64,000 nucleotides of DNA from Corynebacterium timonense (GTDB taxonomy: Bacteria; Actinomycetota; Actinomycetes; Mycobacteriales; Mycobacteriaceae). The DNA lies in contig NZ_LT629765.1 in the NCBI RefSeq assembly GCF_900105305.1, positions 558,001 to 622,000 of the forward strand. Reading direction: 5' to 3'. Below the pieces are notes generated by a model, which worked only from the letters and a program-made list of their open reading frames with translations, did not search any database and was not told where the DNA came from. Below are positions 11,018 through 56,700 of the stretch, one piece after another (the stretch's first letter is position 1; every line of letters begins with the position of its first letter). Both the position numbers and the translations under genes were made by a program.

Positions 11018-11220
11018 GGTCGACCTCAACGAAATCCTGCGGGTAAAACTCCTGGTCGCGTGACCCCGGTTTGCGTTGAGGTCGACTAGGCGGGGTGTGC
11101 TGGTCGACCTCAGCGAAATCTGGAGCGTAAAACCCCTGGTCGCGCGCCACGGAAATACCTTGAGGTCGACTAGGCCTGGCGCCCTGGTCGACCTCAGCGA
11201 AATCTGGAGCGTAAAACCCC
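11018..11220 (+). repeat. 84-bp tandem repeat array with internal dyads (about 2.4 copies)
   Basis: GTCGACCTCA recurs at 11019, 11103 and 11187, a period of exactly 84 bases. Copies 1 and 2 end with TTGAGGTCGACTAGG, so each unit begins and ends with inverted copies of the same 10-mer and could fold into a long hairpin. Copy 3 is cut off after the GTAAAACCCC core. Copies 2 and 3 are nearly identical; copy 1 is more diverged. The array fills the 246-base gap between two convergent genes. It is open in several frames (84 is divisible by 3), but nothing indicates translation. Confidence 0.85.
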
Positions 11221-11240: not shown

Positions 11241-12926
11241 TTAACTGTCGTCGCGCCAGACCTCGTCGGTCCACAGGGTGGACAGGGTGAGAATCCGGGC
11301 GCGGGAGTCGCCAGAATCGACACGCGCGCGCCATTGGCGGCGCAGCCAGCGGTCGTGGCTGGTGATGACGACGGTGCCGGGGAAGTCCACGAGCGCCGAT
11401 TCGAGTTCCTCGGCGAGGGCGAGGGAGAGGTGGTTCGTGGGCTCGTCGAGAAGCAGCAGGTCTGGCGGGGAGCACAGGATGATGCCGAGGGACACGCGGC
11501 GGCGTTGGCCGAAAGACAGTGCCTCGAGCGGCCGGGCGGCCTGCTCCTCGGTCATGAGGCCGAGCTCGACGAGGTCGGGCGCGCCCTCAGGGGTGCGCTG
11601 CGCGAAGGCCTCGGCGGCGGTGAGGCGAAGGTCCTCCCACGAATCGTCCTGCTCGAGGCGGGCGACGGTCATCTCTTCCGGCATGACCAGCTCTCCCTCG
11701 TAGCCGCGAAGGGTCCCGTCGAGGATTTTCAGCAAGGTCGACTTTCCGGCCCCGTTCGGCCCTTCCACGAGCAGCTGCTGGCCGGGCTGGATCTTTATGG
11801 TGAGCGGCTCGAGCCGGCCGCCAACGGCGAGCTCGCGAGCGACGACCGCGGGGACCCCGAGGCTCGTCACGACACTCGGGGGCAGGCCCTGAAACTCGAG
11901 GCGCTTCGGCGGGGCGGGCAGCTCGCGTCGCTCCAGCTCGGCGAGGCGGTTTTCGGCGGAGCGGCGCCGGTTGCCCACGGTTTTGGCGGCGCGGTCCGCG
12001 TAGAATTTCGCCGCCTTGCGCGTTTCCGTCTTATTCTCCTGGGAGTGGAAAATATCCCCCGCGCCGACGTCGGCGGCCTTTTCTAGGCGTGCGCGCTCGT
12101 GCTCTTGGGCGGCGTAGTCGGTCTCCCACCGGCGTCGGCGGGCCTCGCGGGCGGCGAGGTAGTCCGTGAAAGAGCCGGTGAAGCGGGCGCCCTGCCGGGT
12201 GTCCTCGCCGAAGCCTCCCTCGGCCCCGAGACCCGGGTCGAGGTCGACGAGGCCGTCACAGGCGGCGTCGAGGAAAAAGCGGTCGTGGCTGGCGGCAAGC
12301 ACCGAGCCGGTGAAGGCATTGAGCTCGGTGACGAGGAAGTCCACGGCGGCGTCGTCGAGGTGGTTGGTCGGCTCGTCGAGCACCATCGCGTCCACGGGGC
12401 GCAGCAGCAGGGTGGCCAGGGCGAAGCGGCGGCGCTGCCCGCCAGACATCTCGCCGAGCGGGGTGGATAGCGCGACGTTGGAGAGGCCAAGGCCCGCGAG
12501 GACGGTGGCGATGCGCGCGTCGAGTTCCCATACCCCGTTGTTTTGCGCGAGGGCGAGGGTGCGGTCGAACTCGTCGGCAGCGTCTGGGTCAGTCGCCATG
12601 CGGTCGGACAGCTCGGTGATGCGGGCTTCAATGTGCCGCAGCTGCTCCACGGCGCCTTCGATGAGCTGGGAGGCGGGGGCCGTGAAGGGCAGATCGGTCT
12701 CCTGGGGGATGAACCCGGTCACCGGAGGGGTGATGATGCTGCCGGCGTCCGGGCTCAGCGCCCCGGAAACCAGCGCGAGCAGGGTGGACTTGCCCGCGCC
12801 GTTTTCGCCGATGAGGCCGGTCACCGAGTCGGAGGGCACGGCGAAGGAGATGTCGGTGAGAACCCGCCGGCCCCCCGGGTACGAGAAGGAGACACCGTCG
12901 AGGCCGATGTGCAGCGGAGCAACCAT
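11241..12926 (-). CDS. ABC-F family ATPase (duplicated ATPase)
   Basis: A soluble protein of 561 residues with two ABC ATPase domains and no membrane segments. Domain 1 has GENGAGKST near residue 40, MSGGQRRRFALA and LVLDEPTNHLDD-type Walker B sequence; domain 2 has GPNGAGKST near 395, LSFGQRRRVSLG and LLLLDEPTNHL. A charged linker around residues 270-340 separates them, as in ABC-F proteins that act on the ribosome (translation factors or antibiotic target protection). Which of these roles applies cannot be told. It follows the lipoprotein gene upstream by 9 bases, so the two form an operon read leftward. Confidence 0.92.
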   Translation of the reverse strand: MVAPLHIGLDGVSFSYPGGRRVLTDISFAVPSDSVTGLIGENGAGKSTLLALVSGALSPDAGSIITPPVTGFIPQETDLPFTAPASQLIEGAVEQLRHIEARITELSDRMATDPDAADEFDRTLALAQNNGVWELDARIATVLAGLGLSNVALSTPLGEMSGGQRRRFALATLLLRPVDAMVLDEPTNHLDDAAVDFLVTELNAFTGSVLAASHDRFFLDAACDGLVDLDPGLGAEGGFGEDTRQGARFTGSFTDYLAAREARRRRWETDYAAQEHERARLEKAADVGAGDIFHSQENKTETRKAAKFYADRAAKTVGNRRRSAENRLAELERRELPAPPKRLEFQGLPPSVVTSLGVPAVVARELAVGGRLEPLTIKIQPGQQLLVEGPNGAGKSTLLKILDGTLRGYEGELVMPEEMTVARLEQDDSWEDLRLTAAEAFAQRTPEGAPDLVELGLMTEEQAARPLEALSFGQRRRVSLGIILCSPPDLLLLDEPTNHLSLALAEELESALVDFPGTVVITSHDRWLRRQWRARVDSGDSRARILTLSTLWTDEVWRDDS

Positions 12927-42814: not shown

Positions 42815-44122
42815 ATGCGTCGGGGATGCGCTGCGGGTGTGCTCACTCCCGCGGAAGTGGAATCTGTAACGAGCCCCTGGGAGGCCCGGGGACTGAAACC
42901 AACGCTCGCGGCCGTCGCGGCCGCTTTCGGTGCGTGGTCTCTGCTTCTGCCCGTCGTGCCAACGGCGGTCCTTGATTCGGGCGGATCCGAAACCCTCGCG
43001 GGGGCGAGCACCGGTCTGTTCATGCTGTCCACGGTGCTCACCCAGATCGTGATGCCGCGCGTGCTGCGCGTCTTCGGATACCGCACGGTGATCGCCGTGG
43101 CCTCCGTGCTGCTCGGCCTTCCGGCCTTGGGCTTCCTCGTCGGCATGGATGCCGCCGTTGTCATCGTGGTCAGCCTCATCCGCGGCGTCGGCTTCGGCGC
43201 TCTCAGCGTGGCGGAAGCTGCCATTATTGCCCAGCTGGTTCCGCTGCGCCTGCTCGGGCGCACCACGGGGCTCTTCGGTATCTGGGTCGGCGGGTCTCAG
43301 ATGGTCGCCCTGCCGCTGGGGCTAGCTTTGGCGGAGCGCATCGGTTACTCCCTTGTGTTCGTCACCGCCACTGTCATCGGCATGCTCGGCCTCGTCGTGT
43401 GCCTGCTGATCCCGACGATCGAGAACGAGCCCGAGGGCGACGCGGATTTCACAGGCGTTCACGTGCCCACGTGGCGCCTTGTGGCGGTGCCGATGCTCGC
43501 CCTCACCTTTGTCACGACAGCGTATGGCGCGGTGACGAACTTTCTGCCGGTCACAGTGCGTGAGATCGACCCCGCGGTCAGCGCAACCTTCGCGGGCGCC
43601 TTGTTGTCGGCCGTCAACCTCGCGGCGATGGGGGCGCGCTACTACGCGGGCATGACCTTCGACCGTCGCGGCACGCCCGGCACCGTGATGATCCCCTTCC
43701 AGATCATCGCCGCCATCGGAATCGCGCTGATTGCCCTCGTTGCCGTGACCGACCTGTCGGTGTGGTGGCTGGTGCCGGCGGCCCTGTTCTACGGGGCCGG
43801 CTTCGGCGCGGTGCAAAACGAGTCGCTGACCCAGCTGTTCTACCGGCTGCCCAAGTCGAAGACTTCCGAGGCCAGCGCCATGTGGAACATTGCCTACGAC
43901 TCCGGCACGGGGATCGGCTCGTTGTTCTACGGCATGATCCTGGGCGCGGTGACCATGGGCGGCATGTACGCTGTCGCCACGGGCATCATCCTCATCGGCG
44001 TGATCATCACCTACTCGGACCGCGTGCTCGGGCGCCACCGCGTGGCGGAGGTGGACAACCTCGCCGTGCGGCTGCGCGCCGTGCAAGCACCGCGCCGCTA
44101 CGGGCGCCGCGGCGGGCGCTAG
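42815..44122 (+). CDS. MFS transporter inside the his cluster
   Basis: A 435-residue major facilitator protein with about 12 hydrophobic segments and a central hydrophilic loop near residues 200-225 (PTIENEPEGDADFTGVH). The N-terminal cytoplasmic part is about 25 residues. Typical MFS turns include MPRVLRVFGYRTV and RLLGRTTGLFGIWVGGSQMV. ATG 42815 is preceded by GAAAGGG. An MFS-type gene also sits between hisB and hisH in C. glutamicum; export of a histidine-pathway compound is possible but unshown. Confidence 0.87.
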   Translation: MRRGCAAGVLTPAEVESVTSPWEARGLKPTLAAVAAAFGAWSLLLPVVPTAVLDSGGSETLAGASTGLFMLSTVLTQIVMPRVLRVFGYRTVIAVASVLLGLPALGFLVGMDAAVVIVVSLIRGVGFGALSVAEAAIIAQLVPLRLLGRTTGLFGIWVGGSQMVALPLGLALAERIGYSLVFVTATVIGMLGLVVCLLIPTIENEPEGDADFTGVHVPTWRLVAVPMLALTFVTTAYGAVTNFLPVTVREIDPAVSATFAGALLSAVNLAAMGARYYAGMTFDRRGTPGTVMIPFQIIAAIGIALIALVAVTDLSVWWLVPAALFYGAGFGAVQNESLTQLFYRLPKSKTSEASAMWNIAYDSGTGIGSLFYGMILGAVTMGGMYAVATGIILIGVIITYSDRVLGRHRVAEVDNLAVRLRAVQAPRRYGRRGGR

Positions 44123-44125
44123 ACT
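44120..44125 (+). promoter_or_regulatory. Candidate -10 of hisH (leaderless)
   Basis: TAGACT overlaps the stop codon of the MFS gene and ends 8 bases before the hisH ATG. No binding site lies between. Confidence 0.45.
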
Positions 44126-44133
44126 AGCCAGCC

Positions 44134-44793
44134 ATGATGACAGGCTCGCCCGCTTCCCGCCCCCACGTTGCCCTGCTCGATTACGGGGCCGGTAACCTGC
44201 GCTCGGCGCAGCGCGCCCTCGAACACGTCGGCGCCGAGGTCGCCGTCACCCGCGACCCGAAGGAGGCCGTCGAGGCCGACGGCCTCCTCGTGCCCGGGGT
44301 GGGCGCCTTCGACGCCTGCATGAGGGGGCTGCGGGCGGTAAACGGGCCGCGCATCGTCGGTCAGCGGCTTGCCGGCTCGCGGCCGGTGCTGGGCATTTGC
44401 GTAGGGCTGCAGGTGATGTTCGACCGGGGCACGGAGCACGGGCTGAACGCCGAGGGGATGGGGCAGTGGCCGGGCAGCGTCGAGAAGCTGCGCGCGAGCG
44501 TGCTGCCCCACATGGGGTGGAACACGGTCGAGGTCGCGCCGGGGTCGGCGATGTTCGCGGGCCTCGACCCCGCTGAGCGCTACTATTTTGTGCACTCCTA
44601 CGGGGTGCAGGACTGGCAGATGCAGGAGGACGAGTTTATCGCGGCGCCGAAGGTGTCGTGGTCTGTCCACGGCGAGAGCCGGTTCGTTGCGGCGGTGGAG
44701 AACGGGCCGCTGTGGGCAACACAGTTTCACCCCGAGAAGTCGGGGGAGGCCGGCCTAGGGCTGCTCGAAAACTGGGTGCGCACGCTCGGATAA
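44134..44793 (+). CDS. hisH: Imidazole glycerol phosphate synthase, glutaminase subunit
   Basis: Supplies ammonia to HisF. The 219-residue class I glutamine amidotransferase has [18 protein letters not shown] at the start. The nucleophile Cys is in [17 protein letters not shown], and the His-Glu pair in [12 protein letters not shown]. Its partner hisF is encoded two genes downstream at 46436. The ATG at 44134 and a second in-frame ATG at 44137 both fit; the spacing from TAGACT supports the first. Confidence 0.97.
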
Positions 44794-44802
44794 GGTTGGG
44801 CC

Positions 44803-45558
44803 ATGGACTTCACTCTCCTTCCCGCGGTCGATGTTGTTGATGGTCAGGCGGTGCGCCTCAGCCAGGGCGAGGCCGGCACTGAGAAGAACTACGGCTCCCC
44901 GCTGCAGGCGGCGTTGAACTGGCAGGGGCAGGGCGCCGACTGGATCCATGTCGTGGACCTCGACGCCGCGTTCGGGCGCGGCTCGAACCACGAACTTGTG
45001 GCCGAGATCACCCGGGCGGTCGACGTCAACGTCGAGCTCTCGGGCGGCATTCGCGACGACGCCTCACTGGAGCGCGCCCTGGCGACGGGCGCGAAGCGCG
45101 TCAACGTGGGCACCGCGGCGCTGCGCAACCCGGAATGGGCCGCGCAGGTGATTCGCCGCTACGGCGAGAAGGTCGCCGTCGACCTCGCTGTGCGCGAGGA
45201 ACACGGGCAGTGGCGCACGAAGGGCAACGGCTGGACCTCCGACGGCGGGGACCTGTGGGAAGTGCTCGAGTACTTCGACCAGGCGGGCTGCGCGCGGGTT
45301 GTCGTCACCGACGTTTCGCGCGACGGCACGTTGAGCGGGCCGAACGTCGAGCTCCTGCGCGAGGTGTCGGCCGCGACGGACGCTCTGGTCACGGCGTCCG
45401 GAGGTATCTCGTCGGTCGAGGACATCGCCGAGATCGCGCGCTTTGCGGACGAGGGCATCGACTCCGCCATCGTTGGCAAGGCGCTGTACGAAGAACGCTT
45501 CACCCTGCGCGAGGCCCTGCGCCACCTCGAGCAGGTGCGAGACGGCGAAACCACATAA
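44803..45558 (+). CDS. hisA: ProFAR isomerase HisA (subHisA type)
   Basis: Isomerises ProFAR to PRFAR. The 251-residue (beta/alpha)8 protein aligns without gaps through most of its length to M. tuberculosis PriA, the dual HisA/TrpF enzyme. Asp10 in PAVDVVDG and Asp174 in VSRDGT match the catalytic pair Asp11/Asp175. Trp144 is kept, but Asn142 replaces Arg143 of the PriA GRGW loop, and Ala129 replaces the Asp of GLDVQ. These changes are those known for corynebacterial subHisA, which lost TrpF activity after the trp operon was replaced. TAAGGT (44791-44796) may give a leaderless start. Confidence 0.95.
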
Positions 45559-45586
45559 AAGCGCCCTATAGGAAAAGCTGAAAGGG

Positions 45587-45592
45587 TAGGGT
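45587..45592 (+). promoter_or_regulatory. Candidate -10 of impA (leaderless)
   Basis: TAGGGT ends 6 bases before the impA ATG; no binding site lies between them. Confidence 0.42.
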
Positions 45593-45598
45593 GTCGTT

Positions 45599-46390
45599 AT
45601 GGATTCCACGGCCCGCTACCTCGAGATCGCGGAAGACGCCGTCGCGGAAGCGCGCCGTATTTTCGTCTCCCATCTTGGGGCCGCTCCCGCGCTGTTTAAA
45701 GGCGACGGCGACTTCGCCACGGAGGCAGATGTGGCGATCGAGACGCTGCTGCACGAGAAGCTGACCTCCGCGACCGGCATCCCCGTCTACGGCGAGGAGC
45801 TCGGCGGCGACCTCAACGAGGGCGCCTGCTGGGTGGTCGACCCTATCGACGGCACGTCGAACTACTCCTCCGGCAACCCCAACTGCTCCATCTTGGTGTC
45901 ACTACTCCACCGCGGCCAGCCCATCGTCGCGGTCACGGAGGTGCCGCTTTTGGACATGCACCTCACCGCCGTCGACGGCGGCCCTGTCTACCTCAACGGC
46001 ACCGCTCTGCCGAGGGTGAGCGACGACAACAAGGCCGCCGCCCAGGTCGGGGTCGGTTCGGTGCGCTCTCCGGATTCGGAAGACTACCCGGCCGAGGTAC
46101 GCCTCGGCGTCATGGCCACACTGGCCGAGACGAACCTCCGCCCGCGAATCTCCGGGTCCGTGGGCGTGGACTTCGCCTTTGTGGCGCAGGGCATCTACCA
46201 GGCGGCGGTGAGCTTCTCGCCGCACTTGTGGGACAACTGCGCCGGGGTGCTCCTCGCACGCAGCGCGGGCGCTGTGGTCACGAGCCCCGACGGGGGGCCG
46301 TGGACCATGCGCTCGGAGGGGGCGATCGCTGGGACGAGGCGGGCCCATCGGATCGCGCTGAGTACGATGAAGTCCGTCGCCTCGAAGTAG
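45599..46390 (+). CDS. impA: Inositol-monophosphatase family phosphatase
   Basis: A Mg-dependent phosphatase, 263 residues, with the family motifs FATEADVAIETLL, YGEELGG (metal Glu), WVVDPIDGTSNYSSG (two metal Asp) and PHLWDNCAGVLLARSAGAVVT (last metal Asp region). Substrates in this family include inositol phosphates and histidinol phosphate. Its place between hisA and hisF is conserved in M. tuberculosis (impA). It could be the histidinol-phosphate phosphatase, but C. glutamicum uses a different paralogue for that step, so I keep the broader name. Confidence 0.93.
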   Translation: MDSTARYLEIAEDAVAEARRIFVSHLGAAPALFKGDGDFATEADVAIETLLHEKLTSATGIPVYGEELGGDLNEGACWVVDPIDGTSNYSSGNPNCSILVSLLHRGQPIVAVTEVPLLDMHLTAVDGGPVYLNGTALPRVSDDNKAAAQVGVGSVRSPDSEDYPAEVRLGVMATLAETNLRPRISGSVGVDFAFVAQGIYQAAVSFSPHLWDNCAGVLLARSAGAVVTSPDGGPWTMRSEGAIAGTRRAHRIALSTMKSVASK

Positions 46391-46435
46391 CCGCGCAGAA
46401 CGTGAGGAAAAGTTGGAGTTTCGGAGAAAGGGTCG

Positions 46436-47227
46436 GTGCCTGCCGTGGGAGTTGCCGTGCGTGTCATCGCGTGCTTGGACGTGGACGAGGGGCGCGTGGT
46501 CAAGGGCGTCAACTTCGAGAATCTGCGCGACGCCGGCGACCCCGTCGAGCTGGCCGCCCGCTACGGTGCCGAGGGCGTCGACGAGCTGACCTTCCTCGAC
46601 GTCTCCGCCTCGAAGCAGGGCCGGGGCACCATGCTGGACGTGGTGCGCCGGACGGCTGACCACGTGTTCATCCCGCTGACGGTCGGTGGCGGGGTGCGCA
46701 CCGCCGCCGACGTGCGGGAGCTACTACGCGCCGGGGCAGACAAGGTGAGCGTGAACACCGCCGCCATCGCGAACCCCTCCCTGCTGCGCGAGCTGTCCGA
46801 AGAGTTCGGCGCGCAGTGCATCGTGTTGTCCATCGACGCCCGCCGCGTCCGCCCTGACGAGCCGGGTGCTCATCCCCAGCCCTCCGGCTTTGAGGTGACC
46901 ACCCACGGCGGGACCCGCTCGGCCGGCATCGACGCGATCGAGTGGGCCCGCACCGGCGAGGAGCTGGGTGTGGGGGAGATCCTGCTGAACTCGATGGACG
47001 GCGACGGCACCAAGGAGGGCTTCGACATCGAGCTGATCGAGGCGGTCCGCGCCGCGGTGAGTGTGCCCATCATCGCCTCGGGTGGCGCGGGCGCGGCCGA
47101 GCATTTTCCCCCGGCGGCGCGCGCCGGCGCGGACGCAGTCCTCGCCGCCTCGATTTTCCATTTCGGGGAGGTCCCGATCGCCGACGTGAAAAAGGCACTG
47201 CGCGAGGCGGGGGAGGACGTGCGATGA
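46436..47227 (+). CDS. hisF: Imidazole glycerol phosphate synthase, cyclase subunit
   Basis: Closes the imidazole ring with ammonia from HisH, releasing AICAR. The TIM-barrel protein has the catalytic Asp in [14 protein letters not shown] and the second in [13 protein letters not shown], with phosphate loops [13 protein letters not shown] and [16 protein letters not shown] 46436 follows GAGAAAGGG. Family alignment begins near [11 protein letters not shown], so GTG 46457 is a possible shorter start. The stop overlaps the hisI ATG by 4 bases. Confidence 0.96.
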
Positions 47228-47610
47228 CACGCCCGCTGAGCGACGACCCGGCCGTCTACGAGCTCGACCCGGCCATCGCGGACAGGCTCACACGCAACAA
47301 CGCGGGCCTTGTGCCCGCGATCGTGCAGGAGGAGGGCACGGGCGACGTCCTCATGATGGCCTGGATGGACGACCACGCCTTGGCCTACACGCTGGCGACG
47401 CGCCGGGGCACCTATTACTCCCGCTCGCGCGGCGAGTACTGGATTAAGGGCGCGACGAGCGGGCACACCCAGGAGGTCACGGGGGTCCGCCTCGACTGCG
47501 ACGGGGACACGCTCCTCGTGCGCGTGCGCCAGGTCGGCGGGGCCTGCCACACCGGCGACCACACGTGCTTCGACGCCGACGTGCTGTTCGAGGGGGAGGC
47601 GCATGACTAA
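47224..47610 (+). CDS. hisI: Phosphoribosyl-AMP cyclohydrolase
   Basis: Opens the adenine ring of PR-AMP, the third step of the pathway. The 128-residue zinc enzyme has [38 protein letters not shown] with a zinc Cys, and the late [12 protein letters not shown] with the other cysteines. It lacks the HisE domain fused in many bacteria, as usual in actinobacteria, so hisE and hisG are elsewhere. It overlaps hisF by 4 bases and the next gene by 8. Confidence 0.96.
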
Positions 47611-48286
47611 CGCGCATACGCGCTCCGACAAGCGCCTGTCGCGGGCGGGGGCGGCCCTGCTCGCGGTGGGCGGGCTGCTCGTCGTCGGCTTCACCCGCCT
47701 GAGCTGGATGACGGTCACGTACTTCGACGACAGGGCCGGCGGCGGCGAAGCGGACATCAGCGGCGCCGCGTGGTCGGCGGAGGCCTCCGCAGTGTCGCTG
47801 CTGCTTTTCGTCTCCGCGATCGCCGCGCTTGCTTTGCGACGCCTCGGCCGCCGCATCGTCGGAGTCGTCGCCGCTGTCGCCGCCGCCGGCGCGTCGCTGG
47901 CCCCCCTCCGCCTGCTGGTGCAGGGCCCCGACCCCGAGCGCGCGCACACGATCCTCACCGCGGGCTACGAGGACCTGCAGTCCCGCTCTGACGCGATCCC
48001 CAGCTGGGCCGAGATCACCGGCATCGACGTGCACACCGTCAGTCCCGTGCTCATGCTGCTGGGGTGCGTGCTTGCCCTCGTGGGCGCGGTGATCGTTGTG
48101 GCGCGCCCCGGGACGGACACTGCAAAGCTGAACAAGTACGAGCGCGAGACCGTACGCCGGGAGAAGATCACGCAGGATTTGTCCGCCGACCCGGATTCTG
48201 GGCGGGTCATGTGGGACGCGCTCGAGGCCGACCTTGACCCCACGGACCTCGGGGACGTGCAGGAGGGGCCGGGGAAGCGCCGCTAG
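47603..48286 (+). CDS. Trp-biosynthesis-associated membrane protein (TIGR02234 type)
   Basis: 227 residues with hydrophobic segments at about 15-35, 65-85, 88-105 and 150-170, and a charged C-terminal tail ([19 protein letters not shown]). [12 protein letters not shown] after the first helix is typical of the family that in actinobacteria lies between trpE and trpC (Rv1610 in M. tuberculosis). Its function is unknown. Here trpE, trpB and trpA are missing and only this gene and a degenerate trpC remain between hisI and lgt. The start overlaps hisI by 8 bases. Confidence 0.88.
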
Positions 48287-48394
48287 GAAGCGGCGCGATT
48301 TCGCCTCCGCGCCGTCGGCAGATACGCTGGCAGTAACCCATGTGCTCGGACCCCGTCGAGCACGCGCAGGTTTTCGCTGATGGGAGGGGTACAC

Positions 48395-49222
48395 ATGCCG
48401 GCCAGCCAGGCAGTTGACAGCGTCGTCGACGCTGTACTTCGCGACGTCGCTCGCCGCGAGGCCGGCGTGTCCTTCCGCGAGATTAAGGCGCGCTCGCGGG
48501 ACATGGAACCCACCCGCGACGTCCGCGCCGCGCTGCTGCGCTCCGGCTGCGGCGTGATCGTCGAGATCAAGCGCACCTCCCCGGTGCACGGCCCCACGGC
48601 CCCCTTTTCCGCCTCGGGGTTGTCGGTGGAGGACGTCGCCTGCGCGATCGAGGACGGTGGGGCCCACCTCATCGCCTGTCAGACGGAGCGCGTGCGTTTC
48701 GACGGCTCACTCGCCGACATGGCGGCCGCCCGCGAGGCGGTGAGCCTTCCCGTGGTGTGCCGCGACGTCATCGTCGACCCCTACCAGATCCACGAGGCGC
48801 GCTGCTACGGTGCCGACATGGTCCCGCTGCAGGTGGGCATCCTGGACCAGCACCGCCTCGAGGCACTCATCGACCGCGCCGAGAGCCTCGGTATGGAGGT
48901 CATGGCGGAGGTCCGCACTCCAGAGGACGCGGACCGGGCGCTGCGCGCCGGGGCGACGATCGTGGCGGTGAACTCGTGGACCTTCGACACCAACGCGCTC
49001 AACCGGCACGCCTTTGCCGACATCGCGCCTGGGCTGCCGACGGAGGTGCTCAAGATCAGCCTTGGCGGGGTGCGCAACGCGCGTGACCTTATCGACGCAG
49101 CCGCCGCGGGCGCCGACGCCGTCCTCGCCGCCGAGGCTGTCATGAGCCACGAGGACATCTGCGCGGCCACCCGGCGCCTCGCCGCCGCCGGCCAGCATCC
49201 GGCGTGCCCCTCGCGCTCGTAA
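48395..49222 (+). CDS. trpC: TrpC-like protein with degenerate active site
   Basis: 275 residues aligning end to end with M. tuberculosis indole-3-glycerol-phosphate synthase. VEIKRTSP keeps Glu57 and Lys59, and Glu172 and Asn193 are kept. However, the RKDF motif is CRDV (Arg123 for the catalytic Lys), AESG is SLGG (Leu223-Gly224 for the catalytic Glu-Ser), and the phosphate-binding GEG is AEA. DPYQIHEAR, RAESLGM and ADRALRAGA show it is a true homologue. Loss of several catalytic residues makes normal IGPS activity unlikely. ATG 48395 has GGGAGGGG upstream; ATG 48380 is upstream of that site. I infer a repurposed or decaying paralogue, not the organism's working TrpC. Confidence 0.88.
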   Translation: MPASQAVDSVVDAVLRDVARREAGVSFREIKARSRDMEPTRDVRAALLRSGCGVIVEIKRTSPVHGPTAPFSASGLSVEDVACAIEDGGAHLIACQTERVRFDGSLADMAAAREAVSLPVVCRDVIVDPYQIHEARCYGADMVPLQVGILDQHRLEALIDRAESLGMEVMAEVRTPEDADRALRAGATIVAVNSWTFDTNALNRHAFADIAPGLPTEVLKISLGGVRNARDLIDAAAAGADAVLAAEAVMSHEDICAATRRLAAAGQHPACPSRS

Positions 49223-49281
49223 TCCGGGCTGTATGTGCCCCGGCTCGCCCGCAGGCGGGTCCGTGAGGCAGACTATGGGGC

Positions 49282-50166
49282 GTGGAAACGACGATTCTGG
49301 CAAACATTCCTTCCCCGCCACAAGGGGTGTGGTACCTCGGCCGGCTCCCCATCCGCGCCTACGCGCTGTGCATCATCGCCGGGATTATCGTGGCGCTGTG
49401 GATTACCCTGCGCCGCTACAAGGCCCGCGGCGGCAACCCCGATGTGGTGTGGGACGCCGTCATCGTCGTCATCCCGGCCGGGATTGTCGGCGGGCGCTTG
49501 TACCACGTGATCACCGACTGGGATAAGTACTTTGGGCCCGGTAGAGACCCGTGGCAGGCGTTCAACGTCACCGCCGGCGGCCTCGGCATCTGGGGCGCGG
49601 TGGCGGCGGGCGTCCTCGGCGTGTGGGCGCTGTTTCGCGTCAAGAAGCTCCCGCTGGGCCCCTTTCTCGATTCGGCCGCGCCCGGCGTCATCCTCGCGCA
49701 GGCCATTGGGCGGTTGGGCAACTGGTTCAACCAGGAGCTCTACGGCCGCCCCACGGACGTGCCGTGGGCGTTGGACATCTACTACCGCGTCGGCCCGGAC
49801 GGCTCGTACGCCCCGCTGACGGGCCGCTCCACCGGCGAGGTCATCGCGAGTGTGCACCCCACATTCCTCTACGAGATGCTGTGGAACATCCTGCTCTTTT
49901 GCTTCCTGCTGTGGGCGGACCGTCGCTTCCGCCTCGGCCACGGCCGGGTGTTCGCGCTCTACGTTGCCGGGTACTCCCTGGGCCGCTCGTGCGTCGAGCT
50001 CATGCGCGCGGACGAAGCAAACATGATTCTTGGGCTGCGCGTGAACACCTGGGTGAGCGCTATTGTGCTGATCGTCGCTGTGATCGTGTTCTTCCGTCTG
50101 CGGAAGGGCCGGGAGACGCCGGAGGAGGTCGACCCGACGTACCACCGCGAGCGCGCCGAGGCGTAG
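49282..50166 (+). CDS. lgt: Prolipoprotein diacylglyceryl transferase
   Basis: Transfers diacylglycerol to the lipobox cysteine, the first step of lipoprotein maturation. The 294-residue membrane protein has about seven helices with [51 protein letters not shown] (signature, with the key Arg and Asn) and [11 protein letters not shown]. The His of the E. coli HGG motif is absent, as in other actinobacterial Lgt proteins as I recall them. GTG 49282. It works with LspA (13929) on the lipoproteins encoded in the window. Confidence 0.96.
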
Positions 50167-50231
50167 CGGGGTAGCTTGGGCGGCGGAACCGTACACGCCG
50201 GCGCCGCCGGAGCTAACTAGGGTGGGAGATC

Positions 50232-51642
<1,411 letters not shown>

Positions 51643-51659
<17 letters not shown>

Positions 51660-52353
51660 ACCCGGCCCACCACCACGCCGCCCAGTCGGCGGCGCCCGGC
51701 TGGGCCGGCACGGCACGCGATCCGCCCGGACCCACGATGCGGGTGACGGGGCTGATGCCGTGCAGCGAGTTCACAAACCACAGCGGCATACCTGGGCGCA
51801 GCCGTCCGGCGCGAACGCGGTGGCCGAGCTCGCGGGCGCGTTCGGCCACCTGCTCCTGGGTCACGGAGGGAAGCCGCACGCCCGCCGGCACGACGAGTAC
51901 GTCGCCGTGCCAGCCGACGAGGGCGCCGGTGGTCGTCTCGTCGAAATCGCCGAGGACCACGTCGTCCGCGCCGGGCGGTGCGTAGTTGTCCCGGAAACGG
52001 GCTAGGCGGGCGAGATCGGGGCCCTTGACCAGCGGCGCGGTGCGCGGGTCCGGCGCGTCGGCGAGGCCGAGCACCGTGGTGCGCCGCGCGGGCGGGGCGG
52101 GGCGCACGTCGAGGCGCAGCTCGCCCTCCGCGAGGGCCACCCGCGGGAAAAAGTGCCCCGCTTCGCCTACGACGCGGAGGGTGGCTTCCCAGAAGCCGGG
52201 CGGAAGCGGGCCGGTACAGCGCTCGAAGCGGCGCGCGTGGGAGCCGAGACAGTGGGTGCGGCCGTCCACGTGGCGCCACGAGTCCGCGCACGCGATCTCG
52301 CCGACGGGCGCGTCGGTGGGCTGCCACCCGTCGCTCCAGAGGTAGCGCCTCAT
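51643..52353 (-). CDS. pabC: Aminodeoxychorismate lyase-like class IV aminotransferase
   Basis: Probably releases pyruvate from 4-amino-4-deoxychorismate to make p-aminobenzoate for folate. The 236-residue protein is somewhat shorter than typical class IV PLP enzymes. VKGPDLARLARFRDNY holds the expected PLP lysine, VVLGDFDETTTGALVGWHGDVLVVP resembles the usual E-x-TxxNxF region, and LHGISPVTRI is the conserved end. Context is the main support: its ATG overlaps the pabAB stop by 4 bases. Confidence 0.85.
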
Positions 52354-54254
52354 TCGAGGCCGCCGATCACGGCGCGCGCCTTGAGCAGGAGTTCCGCGTA
52401 CTCGGCGTGCGCGTCCGAGGCCCACACGATGGCGCCGCCGGCGCCGACGCGCACGGTGTCGCCGTGCGCGACGGCGGTGCGGATGACCACGCTGAGGTCG
52501 GCGGAGCCGTCGAAACCGAGGTAGCCCACCACGCCCGAGTACACCCCGCGCGGCCCGGCCTCGAGCTCGTCGATGATCGCGCAGGTGCGCTCCTTCGGCG
52601 CGCCCGTCATTGAGCCGGGCGGGAACGCCGCGCGCACAAGGTCCACCAGGCTGGCCCCGGGGCGCAGCTGACCGGTCACGGTAGAGACGAGCTGGTGCAC
52701 GGTGGCGTAGGTTTCCACGTGCATGAGCTTCGGCACGGAGACGCTGCCGGGGGTGCAGACGCGGGAGAGGTCGTTGCGCAGTAGGTCGACGATCATGAGG
52801 TTCTCGGCGCGCGTTTTGGCGTCGTCACGCAGGGCGCTCGGAGGCTGATCGCGCGGGATGGTGCCCTTGATGGGCTTGGCCTCGACCGCGCGGTCGCGGA
52901 CGCGGAGGAAGCGTTCGGGCGAGCTGGAGAGCACTTCGACGTCGCCGAGGGCGAGGTAGGCGGCGTAGGGCGCCGGGTTGGAGCGCCGCAGCCGCGAGTA
53001 GAGGTCGAGGCCGCGGCCTGCGGCGGGTGCCTCGTAGGTGTCGGTCAGACACACCTCGTAGGAGTCCCCGCGCGCCAGCGCCGCTTTGATCGCCGCGATG
53101 CGCGCGAGGTACTCCTCCCTGCTCAGCCGCCACGATCCGGGGCCGAGGCCCGCGGGCTCGGTCGCGGCAGGCTGGGCGCGAAGAGCCGCTTTCAGCGTAG
53201 CGACGAGCCGCGTCGCCTCCGCCTCCCGTTCTGGCTGGTAGAGCGCCATGAGATGCGCGCGCCGCGCCGCGTGATCGTAGACGAGGAACGACTGCGGGCG
53301 CACAAAGCACGCGTCGGGGTAGGAGTTGGCGTGCCGGGGGACGAAGCCGGGGAGGGTCAGGGCGGCGCACTCGTAGGTGAGGTAGCCGACCCAGCCGCCA
53401 GTGAAGGGGAGAGGCGGGGCGGTGCTCGTGTCCACGTCCACGGCAAGCTCGGCCTCGAGCTCGGCGAGCACGTCCCCGCCCGAAGTGAGGCTGTAGGCCA
53501 AGGTGCGCGTCAACGACCCGGCGCCGCTGGCCATGATGCTGTAGCCCTCGCCCGTGGCGGAGTCGAGCCAGAAGGCGTTGCCTCCCGCGCCGGTGAGCGC
53601 ACGGAAGGTGGCCTCGGTGTCCAGGTCCACGTCCACCGCCTCGTGCGCAAGGCCCCACCTGCGCGGCGCGTCACCGGCGGGCGCGAGCGCAAGGAAGTTA
53701 CGCATGAGTGTGTCGCCGTGCTCGGTGAGTACCGACTCGGGGTGGAACTGCACGCCCCAATGCGGGGCGCCGAGCACCTCGAGGGCCTGCACAACGCCGT
53801 CCTCGCTGCGAGCGTGGACGCGCACGCCGGGAATGTCCGTGACATGCAGCGAGTGGTAGCGCACGACCCGCATGCCCTGAGGCACGCCGGCGAAGATGCC
53901 CTCGCCCGAGTGTCGGAGCGTGCTCACGTGCCCGTGGTGCGGCTCGGCGCGCTCGACGTCCGCGCCCGCTAGGTGGGCCAGGCCCTGATGGCCCAGGCAC
54001 ACCCCGAGCAGCGGGACGCCCGCGGCGGCCTCGATGACGGCGCGGGAGCCCCCAAAGTCCTCGTCGGCGCTCGGAGTGCCCGGCCCAGGGGAAATGACGA
54101 CGTGGCTGTAGGCACCAGCGCGCACGCGCTCGCAGATGCCCAAGCGGTCGACGTCGTCGGAGCGCACGACCTCGGGTTCCTCGCCCGCCACCGCGGCAAT
54201 GAGGTGGGCGAGGTTGAAGGTGTAGGAATCGCGGTTGTCGACGAGCAGGATCAC
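52350..54254 (-). CDS. pabAB: Fused aminodeoxychorismate synthase PabA-PabB
   Basis: Makes 4-amino-4-deoxychorismate from chorismate and glutamine for folate synthesis. The first 200 residues of 634 are a glutamine amidotransferase (ILLVDNRDSYTFNLAHLIAA, nucleophile Cys in LGVCLGHQGLAHLAG, His-Glu in WGVQFHPESVLTEHGD). The rest is the chorismate-binding domain with AKPIKGTIPRDQPPS, ENLMIVDLLRNDLSRVC, FPPGSMTGAPKERTC and VRVGAGGAIVWASD. The PIKGT lysine marks PabB rather than TrpE. GTG 54254 is the first start that fits the domain. pabC follows with a 4-base overlap. Confidence 0.95.
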   Translation of the reverse strand: MILLVDNRDSYTFNLAHLIAAVAGEEPEVVRSDDVDRLGICERVRAGAYSHVVISPGPGTPSADEDFGGSRAVIEAAAGVPLLGVCLGHQGLAHLAGADVERAEPHHGHVSTLRHSGEGIFAGVPQGMRVVRYHSLHVTDIPGVRVHARSEDGVVQALEVLGAPHWGVQFHPESVLTEHGDTLMRNFLALAPAGDAPRRWGLAHEAVDVDLDTEATFRALTGAGGNAFWLDSATGEGYSIMASGAGSLTRTLAYSLTSGGDVLAELEAELAVDVDTSTAPPLPFTGGWVGYLTYECAALTLPGFVPRHANSYPDACFVRPQSFLVYDHAARRAHLMALYQPEREAEATRLVATLKAALRAQPAATEPAGLGPGSWRLSREEYLARIAAIKAALARGDSYEVCLTDTYEAPAAGRGLDLYSRLRRSNPAPYAAYLALGDVEVLSSSPERFLRVRDRAVEAKPIKGTIPRDQPPSALRDDAKTRAENLMIVDLLRNDLSRVCTPGSVSVPKLMHVETYATVHQLVSTVTGQLRPGASLVDLVRAAFPPGSMTGAPKERTCAIIDELEAGPRGVYSGVVGYLGFDGSADLSVVIRTAVAHGDTVRVGAGGAIVWASDAHAEYAELLLKARAVIGGLE

Positions 54255-54291
54255 GAGCGCCGCCCCGCGAAAGGGCGAGCGCTCAGGGCGG

Positions 54292-56700
54292 CTAGTCGCG
54301 TGCGATCGGGGTCGGCTCGATGTTCCACACCTCGGTAGCGTAGTCGCGGATGGTGCGGTCGGACGAGAAGCGCCCTGACTCACAGATGTTGATCCAGCAC
54401 ATGCGCGCCCAGTGCAGCGGGTCCTCGTAGTACTCGTGGGCCATGCGGTCGCGGGTGTCGCGGTAGGCGGCGAAGTCGCCCAGCACGTAGTAGACGTCCG
54501 GGGTGTCCCAGCCATTCGACTCGAGGAGCGAGGCGCGGATGTCGTGGAAGGCGCCTGTTCCAGCGTCGTCAAGCGTGCCGTCGGTGAGCGCGTCGAGCGC
54601 GCGCTTGAGGCCCGGGGTCTGCTCGAGGCAGGCCTGCGGGTTGTAGCGCTCGCGCAGCTCGTCCAGTTCGTCGACGGTGGCGCCGAAGATGTAGGCGTTG
54701 TCCGCGCCGACGGAGTCGACGATCTCGACGTTGGCACCGTCCATGGTGCCCAGGGTGAGCGCGCCGTTCATCATGAACTTCATGTTGGAGGTGCCCGAGG
54801 CCTCCTTGCCCGCGGTGGAGATCTGCTCGGAGACGTCTGTGGCGGGGATGATGTGCTCGGCGGGGGAGACGTTGTAGTTCTCCACGAAGACGACCTGCAG
54901 GTAGGTCGATACCTCGGGGTCGTTGTTGACCAGCTCGCCGATCGCGTTGATGAGTTTGATGATGCCCTTCGCGCGCGCGTAGCCCGGCGCCGCCTTCGCG
55001 CCGAAGATGAAGGTGCGCTTGGGCACGTCGCGCTCGCCGTCCTCCTTGATGCGGAAGTACAGGTCGAGGATGTAGAGCGCGTTCATGAGCTGGCGCTTGT
55101 ACTCGTGCAGGCGCTTTATTTGGGTGTCAAAGACGGAGTCTGGATCGACTGTCTCGCCCTGGTGGTCGGACAGCCAGGCGGAGAAGGCCTCCTTGTTGGC
55201 CACCTTGATCTCGCGCAGTTCGCGCATGACGTCGTCGTTGTCGGCGAAGTGGCGCAGCTCGCGCAGCGCGTCGAGGTTTGTCACCCACGCGTCGGATCCG
55301 GAGAGGCGGTCCAGCAGTGCGGACAGGCGCGGGTTGCACATGCGCAGCCAGCGGCGCGGGGTGACGCCGTTGGTCTTGTTGTTGAACTTCTCCGGGTACA
55401 GCCCGTGCCAAAAGCCCAGGGTGTCGCGCTTGATGATGTCGGTGTGCAGAGCCGCCACGCCGTTGATGGAGTAGGAGGCGTAGGCCGCGATCCACGCCAT
55501 GTGCACCTTGCCGTCGTGGACGGGGGAGTGGCGGTGGGCGGTGTCGGGGTCGATCCCGCGGGACTCCATGTCCAGGCGGTAGCGGCGGTCGATTTCCACG
55601 ACGATCTCCCAGATACGCCAGAACAGCTGCTTGAAGATGGCCGCGTCCCAGGTCTCCAGCGCCTCCTGCAGCACAGTGTGGTTGGTGTAGGCGAAGGTGT
55701 GGGTGGTCACCTCCCAGGCCTCGTCCCAGCCGAGGCCGTGCTCGTCCATGAGCAGGCGCATCAGCTCCGGGATGGCGAGGACGGGGTGCGTGTCGTTGAG
55801 CTGAACCGAGTTGTAGTCGTGGAAGCCGCGCACGTCCTCGCCGTGGTGCTCGATGTAGGTGTCCAGCATCTCCTGCAGGGAGGCGGAGACGAAGAAGTAC
55901 TGCTGGCGCACGCGCAGCACCTTTCCGGCGAAGGAGGAGTCGTTGGGGTAGAGCACGCGTGTCAGGTCGTGCACCGCCTCGCGCTCGAGGATGGCGTCGG
56001 TGAAGCGCTGGTGGTTGAACGCGTCGTAGTCAAACTCGTGGACAGGCTTGGCGTCCCACAGGCGCAGCGTGCCGACGTTGCGGGTGCCGTAGCCGGTGAT
56101 CGGCATGTCGTAGGGCACCGCGCGGACGTTCATGTCGTCGAAACGCACGATGCGCTGCTGCGTGCCGCGGCGCACGATGAAGGGGTAGAAGGTCTCCTTC
56201 CAGGCGTCGGGTTGCTCCTTCTGGAAGCCGTCGACGAACTCCTGGCGGAACAGGCCGTAGCGGTAGAGCAGGCCGTAGCCGGTAACGGGGTAGTCCTGGG
56301 TCACCGCGGAGTCGAGGAAGCAGGCAGCGAGGCGGCCCAGGCCGCCGTTGCCCAGGGCGGCGTCGTGCTCGGCCTCGAGGACATCGGCCAGCTCGCGGCC
56401 GTACTCGGAGGTGACGCGCGCCGCGTCGTCGACAAGGCCCACGTTGGTGAGGTTGTTCAGAAGGGCGCGGCCCTGCAGGAACTCCGCGGAGAAGTACGCC
56501 TGGCGGCGGGTGGCGGCGTAGGCCTTGCGGGTCGCGTCCCAGTCGTCGGCCAGCTGCTCCATGACCGCTGCGGACAGGCCGGTCCAGAACTTTTTCACAG
56601 TCGAGTTTTCGGGTCGCGCGCCGGAGAAGCTGCGGATGTGCCCGCCGATGGTGGATTCGAAAGCTGGCGTGTGTGCTGGTGTGTTCATGGTCTGCTTCAT
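54292..56700 (-). CDS. glgP: Glycogen/maltodextrin phosphorylase
   Basis: Releases glucose-1-phosphate from alpha-glucan ends. The 802-residue GT35 enzyme has AALGNGGLGRLAACFLDS, VQLNDTHPVLAIPELMR, WHGLYPEKFNNKTNGVTPRRW-type sequence and the PLP/phosphate motif EASGTSNMKFMMNGALTLGTMDGANVEI, which includes the cofactor lysine. Length equals E. coli GlgP/MalP. GlgX and TreY/TreZ, all in this window, act on the same polymer. ATG 56700 (MKQTMNTPAH) or the in-frame ATG 56688 may be used; neither has a strong binding site. Confidence 0.96.
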   Translation of the reverse strand: MKQTMNTPAHTPAFESTIGGHIRSFSGARPENSTVKKFWTGLSAAVMEQLADDWDATRKAYAATRRQAYFSAEFLQGRALLNNLTNVGLVDDAARVTSEYGRELADVLEAEHDAALGNGGLGRLAACFLDSAVTQDYPVTGYGLLYRYGLFRQEFVDGFQKEQPDAWKETFYPFIVRRGTQQRIVRFDDMNVRAVPYDMPITGYGTRNVGTLRLWDAKPVHEFDYDAFNHQRFTDAILEREAVHDLTRVLYPNDSSFAGKVLRVRQQYFFVSASLQEMLDTYIEHHGEDVRGFHDYNSVQLNDTHPVLAIPELMRLLMDEHGLGWDEAWEVTTHTFAYTNHTVLQEALETWDAAIFKQLFWRIWEIVVEIDRRYRLDMESRGIDPDTAHRHSPVHDGKVHMAWIAAYASYSINGVAALHTDIIKRDTLGFWHGLYPEKFNNKTNGVTPRRWLRMCNPRLSALLDRLSGSDAWVTNLDALRELRHFADNDDVMRELREIKVANKEAFSAWLSDHQGETVDPDSVFDTQIKRLHEYKRQLMNALYILDLYFRIKEDGERDVPKRTFIFGAKAAPGYARAKGIIKLINAIGELVNNDPEVSTYLQVVFVENYNVSPAEHIIPATDVSEQISTAGKEASGTSNMKFMMNGALTLGTMDGANVEIVDSVGADNAYIFGATVDELDELRERYNPQACLEQTPGLKRALDALTDGTLDDAGTGAFHDIRASLLESNGWDTPDVYYVLGDFAAYRDTRDRMAHEYYEDPLHWARMCWINICESGRFSSDRTIRDYATEVWNIEPTPIARD

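Follow-up and report, generated by a model that had tools for sequence, protein, structure and literature searches.

The window analysed here, 64,000 nucleotides of the Corynebacterium timonense chromosome (contig NZ_LT629765.1), carries the gene order hisH-hisA-impA-hisF-hisI-tmp-TrpCx-lgt-pyk. TrpCx is the name used here for the copy of the indole-3-glycerol-phosphate synthase (IGPS) family that lies at the his locus with no trpB downstream. The coding sequence occupies 48395..49222 of the forward strand, stop codon included, and translates into 275 residues with no internal stop. An in-frame ATG at 48380 is the less likely start because a ribosome-site-like GGGAGGGG lies at 48382-48389. The Pfam IGPS domain spans residues 8-262 at 163.7 bits (cut-off 27), and the solved TrpC of Mycobacterium tuberculosis (3qja) aligns with residues 4-273, in agreement with the original prediction of a full-length IGPS relative with an intact frame. 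The NCBIfam TrpC equivalog models give a best score of 260.2 bits, below the cut-off of 329, and TrpCx likewise falls under the cut-off of each of the remaining TrpC models listed.

The gene had been placed between hisI and lgt. The prolipoprotein diacylglyceryl transferase gene lgt (49282..50166, forward strand) does lie directly downstream, after a gap of 59 bases, but the gene directly upstream is not hisI (47224..47610, forward strand); it is tmp (47603..48286, forward strand), which encodes a tryptophan-operon-associated membrane protein (PF09534 / TIGR02234). Judging by the family name, tmp is presumably the counterpart of M. tuberculosis Rv1610. As tmp alone separates hisI from TrpCx, trpE, trpB and trpA are indeed absent at the locus; the best trpB match of the genome is located beyond the window at C1:2285760-2286908. 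A chorismate enzyme at 52350-54737 of the reverse strand scores above the PabB cut-off and below the TrpE cut-off, and is read as a PabA-PabB fusion (aminodeoxychorismate synthase) preceded in frame by ∼160 unexplained residues. Known RNA families were not found at 44000-52500 of the window.

A search for a second trpC in the genome, as had been suggested, reveals an intact-scoring trpCF outside the window. This second IGPS (C1:2287599-2288339, 274 bits) lies within an apparent trpD-trpCF-trpB cluster, in which IGPS and trpB were identified by family search and the cluster was read from translations. The IGPS part of the TrpC-TrpF fusion (TrpCF) keeps the catalytic letters here and in all 41 TrpCF sequences read. 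Near C1:2287000-2289400 (L001 862-3282, reverse strand), the trpD frame departs from the expected sequence close to its C-terminal end and continues into trpCF as a single 806-residue frame, reflecting a frameshift or an assembly error. In two other genomes the second IGPS, presumably trpCF, is matched in two pieces (G002 C43:43015-43754 and G022 C14:11137-11665), and the TrpCx frame is open there.

According to the available part of PMC3391178, the catalytic residues of the Sulfolobus enzyme are E51, K53, K110, E159, N180, and S211, and the ligand contacts include E210, F112, G212, G233, and S234 (also the available part of PMC5980557). Alignment with M. tuberculosis TrpC reveals that TrpCx of the window retains E51, K53, E159, N180, and G212. 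The changed residues are K110, replaced by Arg123 (codon 48761..48763), E210 and S211, replaced by Leu223-Gly224 (49061..49066), and G233, replaced by alanine, with the GEG motif reading AEA at 246-248 (Ala246-Glu247-Ala248, 49130..49138; all forward strand). Each of the three substitutions named in the original prediction, at the RKDF lysine, the Glu-Ser of ESG, and GEG, is confirmed in this alignment. Four of the six catalytic residues are thus kept (E51, K53, E159, N180) and two are lost (K110, S211), leaving the set incomplete. The claim that catalytic residues have disappeared therefore stands for K110 and S211 but not for E210, listed in the available part of PMC3391178 as a ligand contact.

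The original prediction also leans too heavily on loss of the glutamate. Two genomes from other classes of Actinomycetota (G201 and G202) each have one IGPS, in which Leu or Met replaces E210; the gene lies on the same contig as trpB, immediately before trpB in G201 (L356) and ∼2 kb or less away in G202 (L339). Because these trpB-associated single TrpCs also lack E210, its loss is no proof of inactivity and was rejected as such; E210 appears less universal in IGPS than assumed. The stronger change in TrpCx is K110 to Arg, joined by S211 to Gly. The Lys110 position is occupied by lysine in 25 of 25 functional-type, 41 of 41 TrpCF, and 28 of 28 phylum-wide TrpC sequences read.

At least one IGPS match is present in each of the 201 Corynebacterium genomes examined, with one in 52, two in 146, and three in 3 genomes. 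TrpCx is present in 151 of them, each time as an open frame. Of the remaining 50 genomes, 47 have a single high-scoring IGPS/TrpC without TrpCx; in the 19 that were read all catalytic residues are kept and trpB adjoins, the other 28 being classed by score only. The 25 functional TrpCs used for comparison consist of these 19 Corynebacterium loci and 6 outgroup loci. Genome G058 has trpCF only and represents the sole clean loss of TrpCx among the 201 genomes, its tmp overlapping lgt (L306, 917-1492 and 1489-2367). The apparent loss in G194 is not a loss, a run of N there separating the beginning of tmp from the end of a TrpCx-like protein; that in G130 may reflect incompleteness, the genome being 82% complete with lgt matched in part (residues 147-286). 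The most diverged TrpCx (L303 713-1429, genome G008), missed by tblastn with the window protein, has 238 residues; its frame remains open and encodes both Cys52 and the His-Pro tail.

Conservation across the 151 TrpCx proteins separates lost, retained, and newly fixed residues. E210 is gone in all of them (Leu in 95, Val in 31, Met in 17, Ile in 5, Ala in 2, and Arg in 1). At the Lys110 position, 128 proteins have Arg and 9 have Lys; nine genomes retain both Lys110 and Ser211, and their TrpCx could still be active. Cys52 (codon 48548..48550) is present in 150 of 151 TrpCx versus none of the 25 functional TrpCs, which have Val or Ile. Arg21, Tyr130, Gln131, Glu134, His268, and Pro269 are found in 151 of 151. 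In the tail His268-Pro269-x-Cys271 (49196..49207), the cysteine is present in 145, and five of the six proteins without it retain Cys52; a metal or disulphide site formed by Cys52 and the tail is an idea only.

In the 134 mainstream genomes, Glu57 (E51), Glu172 (E159), and Gly225 (G212) are invariant, Lys59 is present in 131, Asn193 in 128, and the first glycine of GEG in 102. Several new residues approach fixation in the same set: Arg123 in 124, Leu, Val, Met, or Ile at residue 223 in 132, and Arg at residue 174 (position 161; His in functional TrpC) in 123. Residue 96 is Gln or His in 133 and Leu in functional TrpC; it corresponds to position 83, within the stretch of positions 81 to 88 that was placed by offset and letter agreement, in part from what we take to be the Sulfolobus sequence. 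Among positions invariant in functional TrpC, to which the retention test is confined, active-site positions are retained at 54% and other positions at 72% in the mainstream group (permutation P = 0.017), compared with 22% and 50%, respectively, in the diverged set of 17 (P = 0.0012). The diverged genomes were chosen by low IGPS score, such that divergence itself was selected for and the contrast between kinds of site was not. All 17 have open frames and the His-Pro tail, and 16 have Cys52. As judged from these proteins, a remodelled pocket persists across the greater part of the genus, and 17 genomes have dropped most of it while keeping a core elsewhere. The TrpCx of C. callunae groups by sequence with the diverged 17. 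Members of this group mostly have 261 residues; cg2293 of C. glutamicum also has 261 residues and is probably of this type.

The frames, 234 to 285 residues long, are under purifying selection, as the selection test proposed with the original prediction reveals. Simple Nei-Gojobori counting in 41 pairs that are independent and unsaturated gives TrpCx a median dN/dS of 0.052 (maximum 0.294), with cuts at dN below 0.2 and dS of 0.1 to 1 that limit GC-rich saturation. The same pairs, where available, give 0.059 for lgt, 0.046 for hisF, 0.051 for hisA, 0.076 for hisI, 0.058 for impA, 0.107 for tmp, and 0.026 for pyk, and TrpCx lies below lgt in 21 of 39 pairs. Ten pairs among the most diverged TrpCx, taken with looser cuts, range from 0.042 to 0.222, and in 8 of the ten the TrpCx value is above that of lgt; constraint in this group is thus weaker, yet far from absent. 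In a tree of 70 proteins, TrpCx forms one clade with 100/100 support, separate from TrpCF, with end branches up to 6.5; the long branches of G008, G083, G171, and G081 render the inner order of those rows unsure. The earliest TrpCx branches keep Lys110 with E210 already gone, indicating that E210 was lost first and Lys110 later. Neither a broken frame nor relaxed selection, the marks of a pseudogene, is seen in TrpCx, and the loss of catalytic residues is combined with purifying selection, as expected of a regulatory pseudoenzyme.

Upstream of TrpCx lies a promoter-like element, CGATTTC-N-TACGCT (48296..48328, forward strand), whose commonest form in the genus is GATTTC-N18-19-GNTANCCT; the window copy deviates in the last block. 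The form [GA]ATTT[CT]-N20-21-TANNCT occurs within the 130 bases upstream in 122 of 151 TrpCx genomes and, among the 19 functional loci, in 5; for the tighter GNTAN[CT]CT form the counts are 89 and 1. The looser ATTT-N20-23-TANNNT is found in 136 of 151 and 9 of 19, and in none of 170 control stretches within the gene; after shuffling, 1.65 of 151 sequences match on average (maximum 4). These patterns were picked after viewing the sequences, and the control counts somewhat overstate the surprise. When 1.17 Mb of sequence around the locus in 120 genomes is scanned, a similar form matches 88 times in the forward direction, in 87 cases immediately ahead of TrpCx, and 3 times on the opposite strand. 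Within the window, a looser pattern matches at three sites (the TrpCx copy, 11124-11156, and 12005-12037), and the 122-genome form has two in 862 kb of chromosome, the TrpCx copy and C1:695581, with no open reading frame of at least 100 codons starting within 130 bases of the latter. A scan of 48150-49400 for sigma-70-type promoters and terminators found none. The element looks like a gene-specific promoter or operator.

The position of tmp is nearly constant: in 148 of the 151 TrpCx genomes it precedes TrpCx by no more than 400 bases. A tmp match is present in 200 of 201 Corynebacterium genomes; in G194 its start alone is readable, at E 2.5e-4. Across Actinomycetota, 11 of 70 genomes have tmp above the cut-off. 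In the nine with more than 60 bits, TrpC or TrpCx lies on the same strand within 3 kb in eight, and the ninth has the two on different contigs; the two weakest of the 11 matches are not adjacent to TrpC. The His-Pro tail occurs in 4 of 6 tmp-adjacent TrpCs versus 0 of 22 others across the phylum, a count that leaves out L366, and a clear phylum-wide link between tail and tmp was set aside, the pattern tracking the class-level tree. The tail motif of tmp seems equally conserved beside functional-type TrpC and is thus no pointer to TrpCx in particular. Co-loss of tmp with TrpCx is unsupported, G058 having retained tmp. The literature found, at listing level, gives no function for the tmp family.

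TrpCx also occurs in genomes that lack genes for tryptophan or histidine synthesis. A trpB match is present in 199 of 201 genomes, above the family cut-off in 196. The two genomes without any match, G143 (99% complete) and G118 (53% complete), are the same two that have TrpCx without trpCF. In G143 (L147), trpB, trpCF, and hisI have no match and tmp and TrpCx are kept; the separation of TrpCx from the tryptophan pathway in this one genome is an exception, not the rule. The hisI gene is missing from at least 14 TrpCx genomes, namely 14 of 17 tested, and present in three of three comparison genomes; the 17 were picked for TrpCx without his genes seen nearby, and the count indicates occurrence rather than frequency. 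One of the 14 is only 77% complete, and some, G143 included, still have hisA.

Several observations in C. glutamicum bear on the role of TrpCx. The available part of PMC1590026 describes 10 transposon mutants of trpCF as tryptophan auxotrophs. This auxotrophy despite cg2293 counts for a non-IGPS role, with the caveat that the insertions may silence trpB and trpA through polar effects and eliminate TrpF as well. The putative IGPS gene cg2293 is frameshifted in the laboratory-evolved fast-growing strain EVO5; its truncated product is judged most likely not functional by the authors, who in the available part of PMC6691914 do not credit the growth gain to cg2293. The gene therefore appears dispensable in that strain. 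The his operon is given as ending at cg2294 in the available part of PMC3896937. In a Corynebacterium sub-clade, PriA became a HisA-only enzyme (subHisA) after horizontal transfer, as described in the available parts of PMC4462073 and PMC5404923.

TrpCx very probably does another job than tryptophan synthesis. We consider it highly likely that TrpCx is the old chromosomal TrpC, displaced by a trp operon with a TrpC-TrpF fusion and retained under strong selection for a different task. The complete operon would have taken over tryptophan synthesis, and the chromosomal TrpC, freed from catalysis, would have been kept for its other task. We infer that the operon arrived by transfer from the work of Xie and colleagues in 2004, which reportedly describes trp operon transfer, and from what is available of the subHisA papers. 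The label of remnant given in the original prediction does not fit 151 unbroken frames, a dN/dS of ∼0.05, and fixed new residues. Its suggestion of reuse over decay is well supported by the open frames, the selection, the single origin, the upstream element, the occurrence without hisI or trpB, and the second IGPS.

Action of TrpCx on another ligand is plausible. The retained Glu57, Lys59, Glu172, Asn193, and Gly225 would hold a phosphorylated anionic ligand in the pocket, with the new Arg123, Arg174, and Gln96 also contributing, and closure of the indole ring should fail in the absence of Lys110. Docking on a partner would fall to the invariable portion of TrpCx, comprising the N-terminal Arg21, the PYQIHEAR and DR-ESLGM helices, the His-Pro tail, and the new Cys52; gene order makes the adjacent membrane protein tmp the most likely candidate. 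TrpCx would then be a regulatory or scaffold protein that responds to a ligand, and not an enzyme. To this whole explanation, which entails a presumed loss of IGPS activity, a ligand, a partner, and a regulatory role, we assign a probability of roughly 45%. The retention of tmp after the loss of TrpCx in G058, the dN/dS above lgt in most of the diverged pairs, and the dispensability of cg2293 in EVO5 speak against this explanation. A repurposed TrpC in most of the genus is the firmer part of the account, and a ligand-responsive docking protein beside tmp goes beyond it by inference.

The strongest rival, possible yet somewhat doubtful, is a new enzyme with the IGPS pocket remodelled for another phosphorylated substrate and the retained acid-base residues performing catalysis. 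The invariance of Glu57, Glu172, and Gly225 in the 134 mainstream genomes fits this idea at least equally well, and the retention of Lys59 and Asn193, the near-fixed residues at 96, 123, 174, and 223, and the dN/dS of ∼0.05 agree with it. In contrast, the protein remains under selection (dN/dS 0.04 to 0.22) in the 17 genomes without most pocket residues, and no new enzyme genes are seen beside TrpCx in the loci read. A different extension, which we regard as rather unlikely, is that the TrpC of Actinomycetes always had a non-catalytic job tied to tmp that outlived the enzyme in Corynebacterium. Once a foreign trp operon had taken over catalysis, the protein would have been retained for that job alone with its own promoter, would have gained a near-invariant cysteine, and would be independent of tryptophan and histidine synthesis. 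By this account the functional TrpC of Mycobacterium and other relatives would moonlight, revealing a hidden function of actinobacterial TrpC and the tmp family.

A still working backup IGPS is improbable, even though four of six catalytic residues remain, nine genomes have Lys110 and Ser211 too, and E210 is also lost in single TrpCs found with trpB. The invariant lysine of working enzymes is arginine in 128 of 151 TrpCx, G143 keeps TrpCx without trpB, and the auxotrophy of C. glutamicum trpCF mutants (PMC1590026, available part), possibly polar, argues against a backup, at least for the probably diverged type of that species. An association with histidine synthesis, as partner or regulator of, for example, the HisA (subHisA) encoded at the same locus, would account for the adjoining his genes and the conversion of PriA in the genus (PMC4462073, available part). 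It is weakened to a very slim chance by the genomes that have TrpCx without hisI, though some have hisA, and by the operon end given for C. glutamicum (PMC3896937, available part). A decaying pseudogene can hardly be credited. Key residues are gone, some lineages diverge fast, G058 lost the gene cleanly, and a frameshift was fixed in laboratory evolution (PMC6691914, available part); against this, none of 151 frames is broken, dN/dS is as low as in lgt and by itself contradicts decay, the upstream element recurs, and new residues are fixed.

TrpCx resembles several known systems in part. With IGPS TrpC (M. tuberculosis 3qja, S. solfataricus 1a53) it shares full-length homology, the chromosomal locus, the tmp neighbour, and E51, K53, E159, N180, and G212; it differs in the loss of K110, E210, and often S211, in the new Cys52, Arg123, and Arg174, in having no trpB beside it, and in its presence in G143 without trpB or trpCF. 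The TrpCF of the same genome belongs to the same IGPS family but to a separate clade (100/100), with complete catalytic residues in the 41 sequences read. Noda-Garcia and colleagues in 2013 reportedly described subHisA as PriA without TrpF activity. Both cases concern the same genus and a recipient's own barrel enzyme changed after horizontal transfer, the same proposed cause (PMC4462073 and PMC5404923, available parts), whereas subHisA retained one of its two reactions and TrpCx apparently lost its sole known one. The AdoMetDC prozyme and the dead deoxyhypusine synthase of trypanosomatids are likewise retained homologues without key catalytic residues (PMC5201418 and PMC3663545, available parts); their active partners are known, whereas tmp is a candidate by gene order, and TrpCx seemingly arose by displacement rather than duplication.

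The repurposed TrpC would provide a natural experiment on the fate of a native enzyme after pathway replacement, with ∼150 genomes of single origin, intermediate states in which E210 was lost before K110, and later loss of the pocket. Searches of open-licence PMC papers turned up no account of TrpCx as a protein family. In 151 of 201 Corynebacterium genomes, approximately three quarters, a protein named TrpC or IGPS in public sources, where named, is probably not IGPS, and this naming misleads annotation and metabolic models, for example, of G143. One TrpCx protein (P0061) carries the species name Streptococcus thermophilus in a public source, where contamination or mislabelling of the record is the probable reason.
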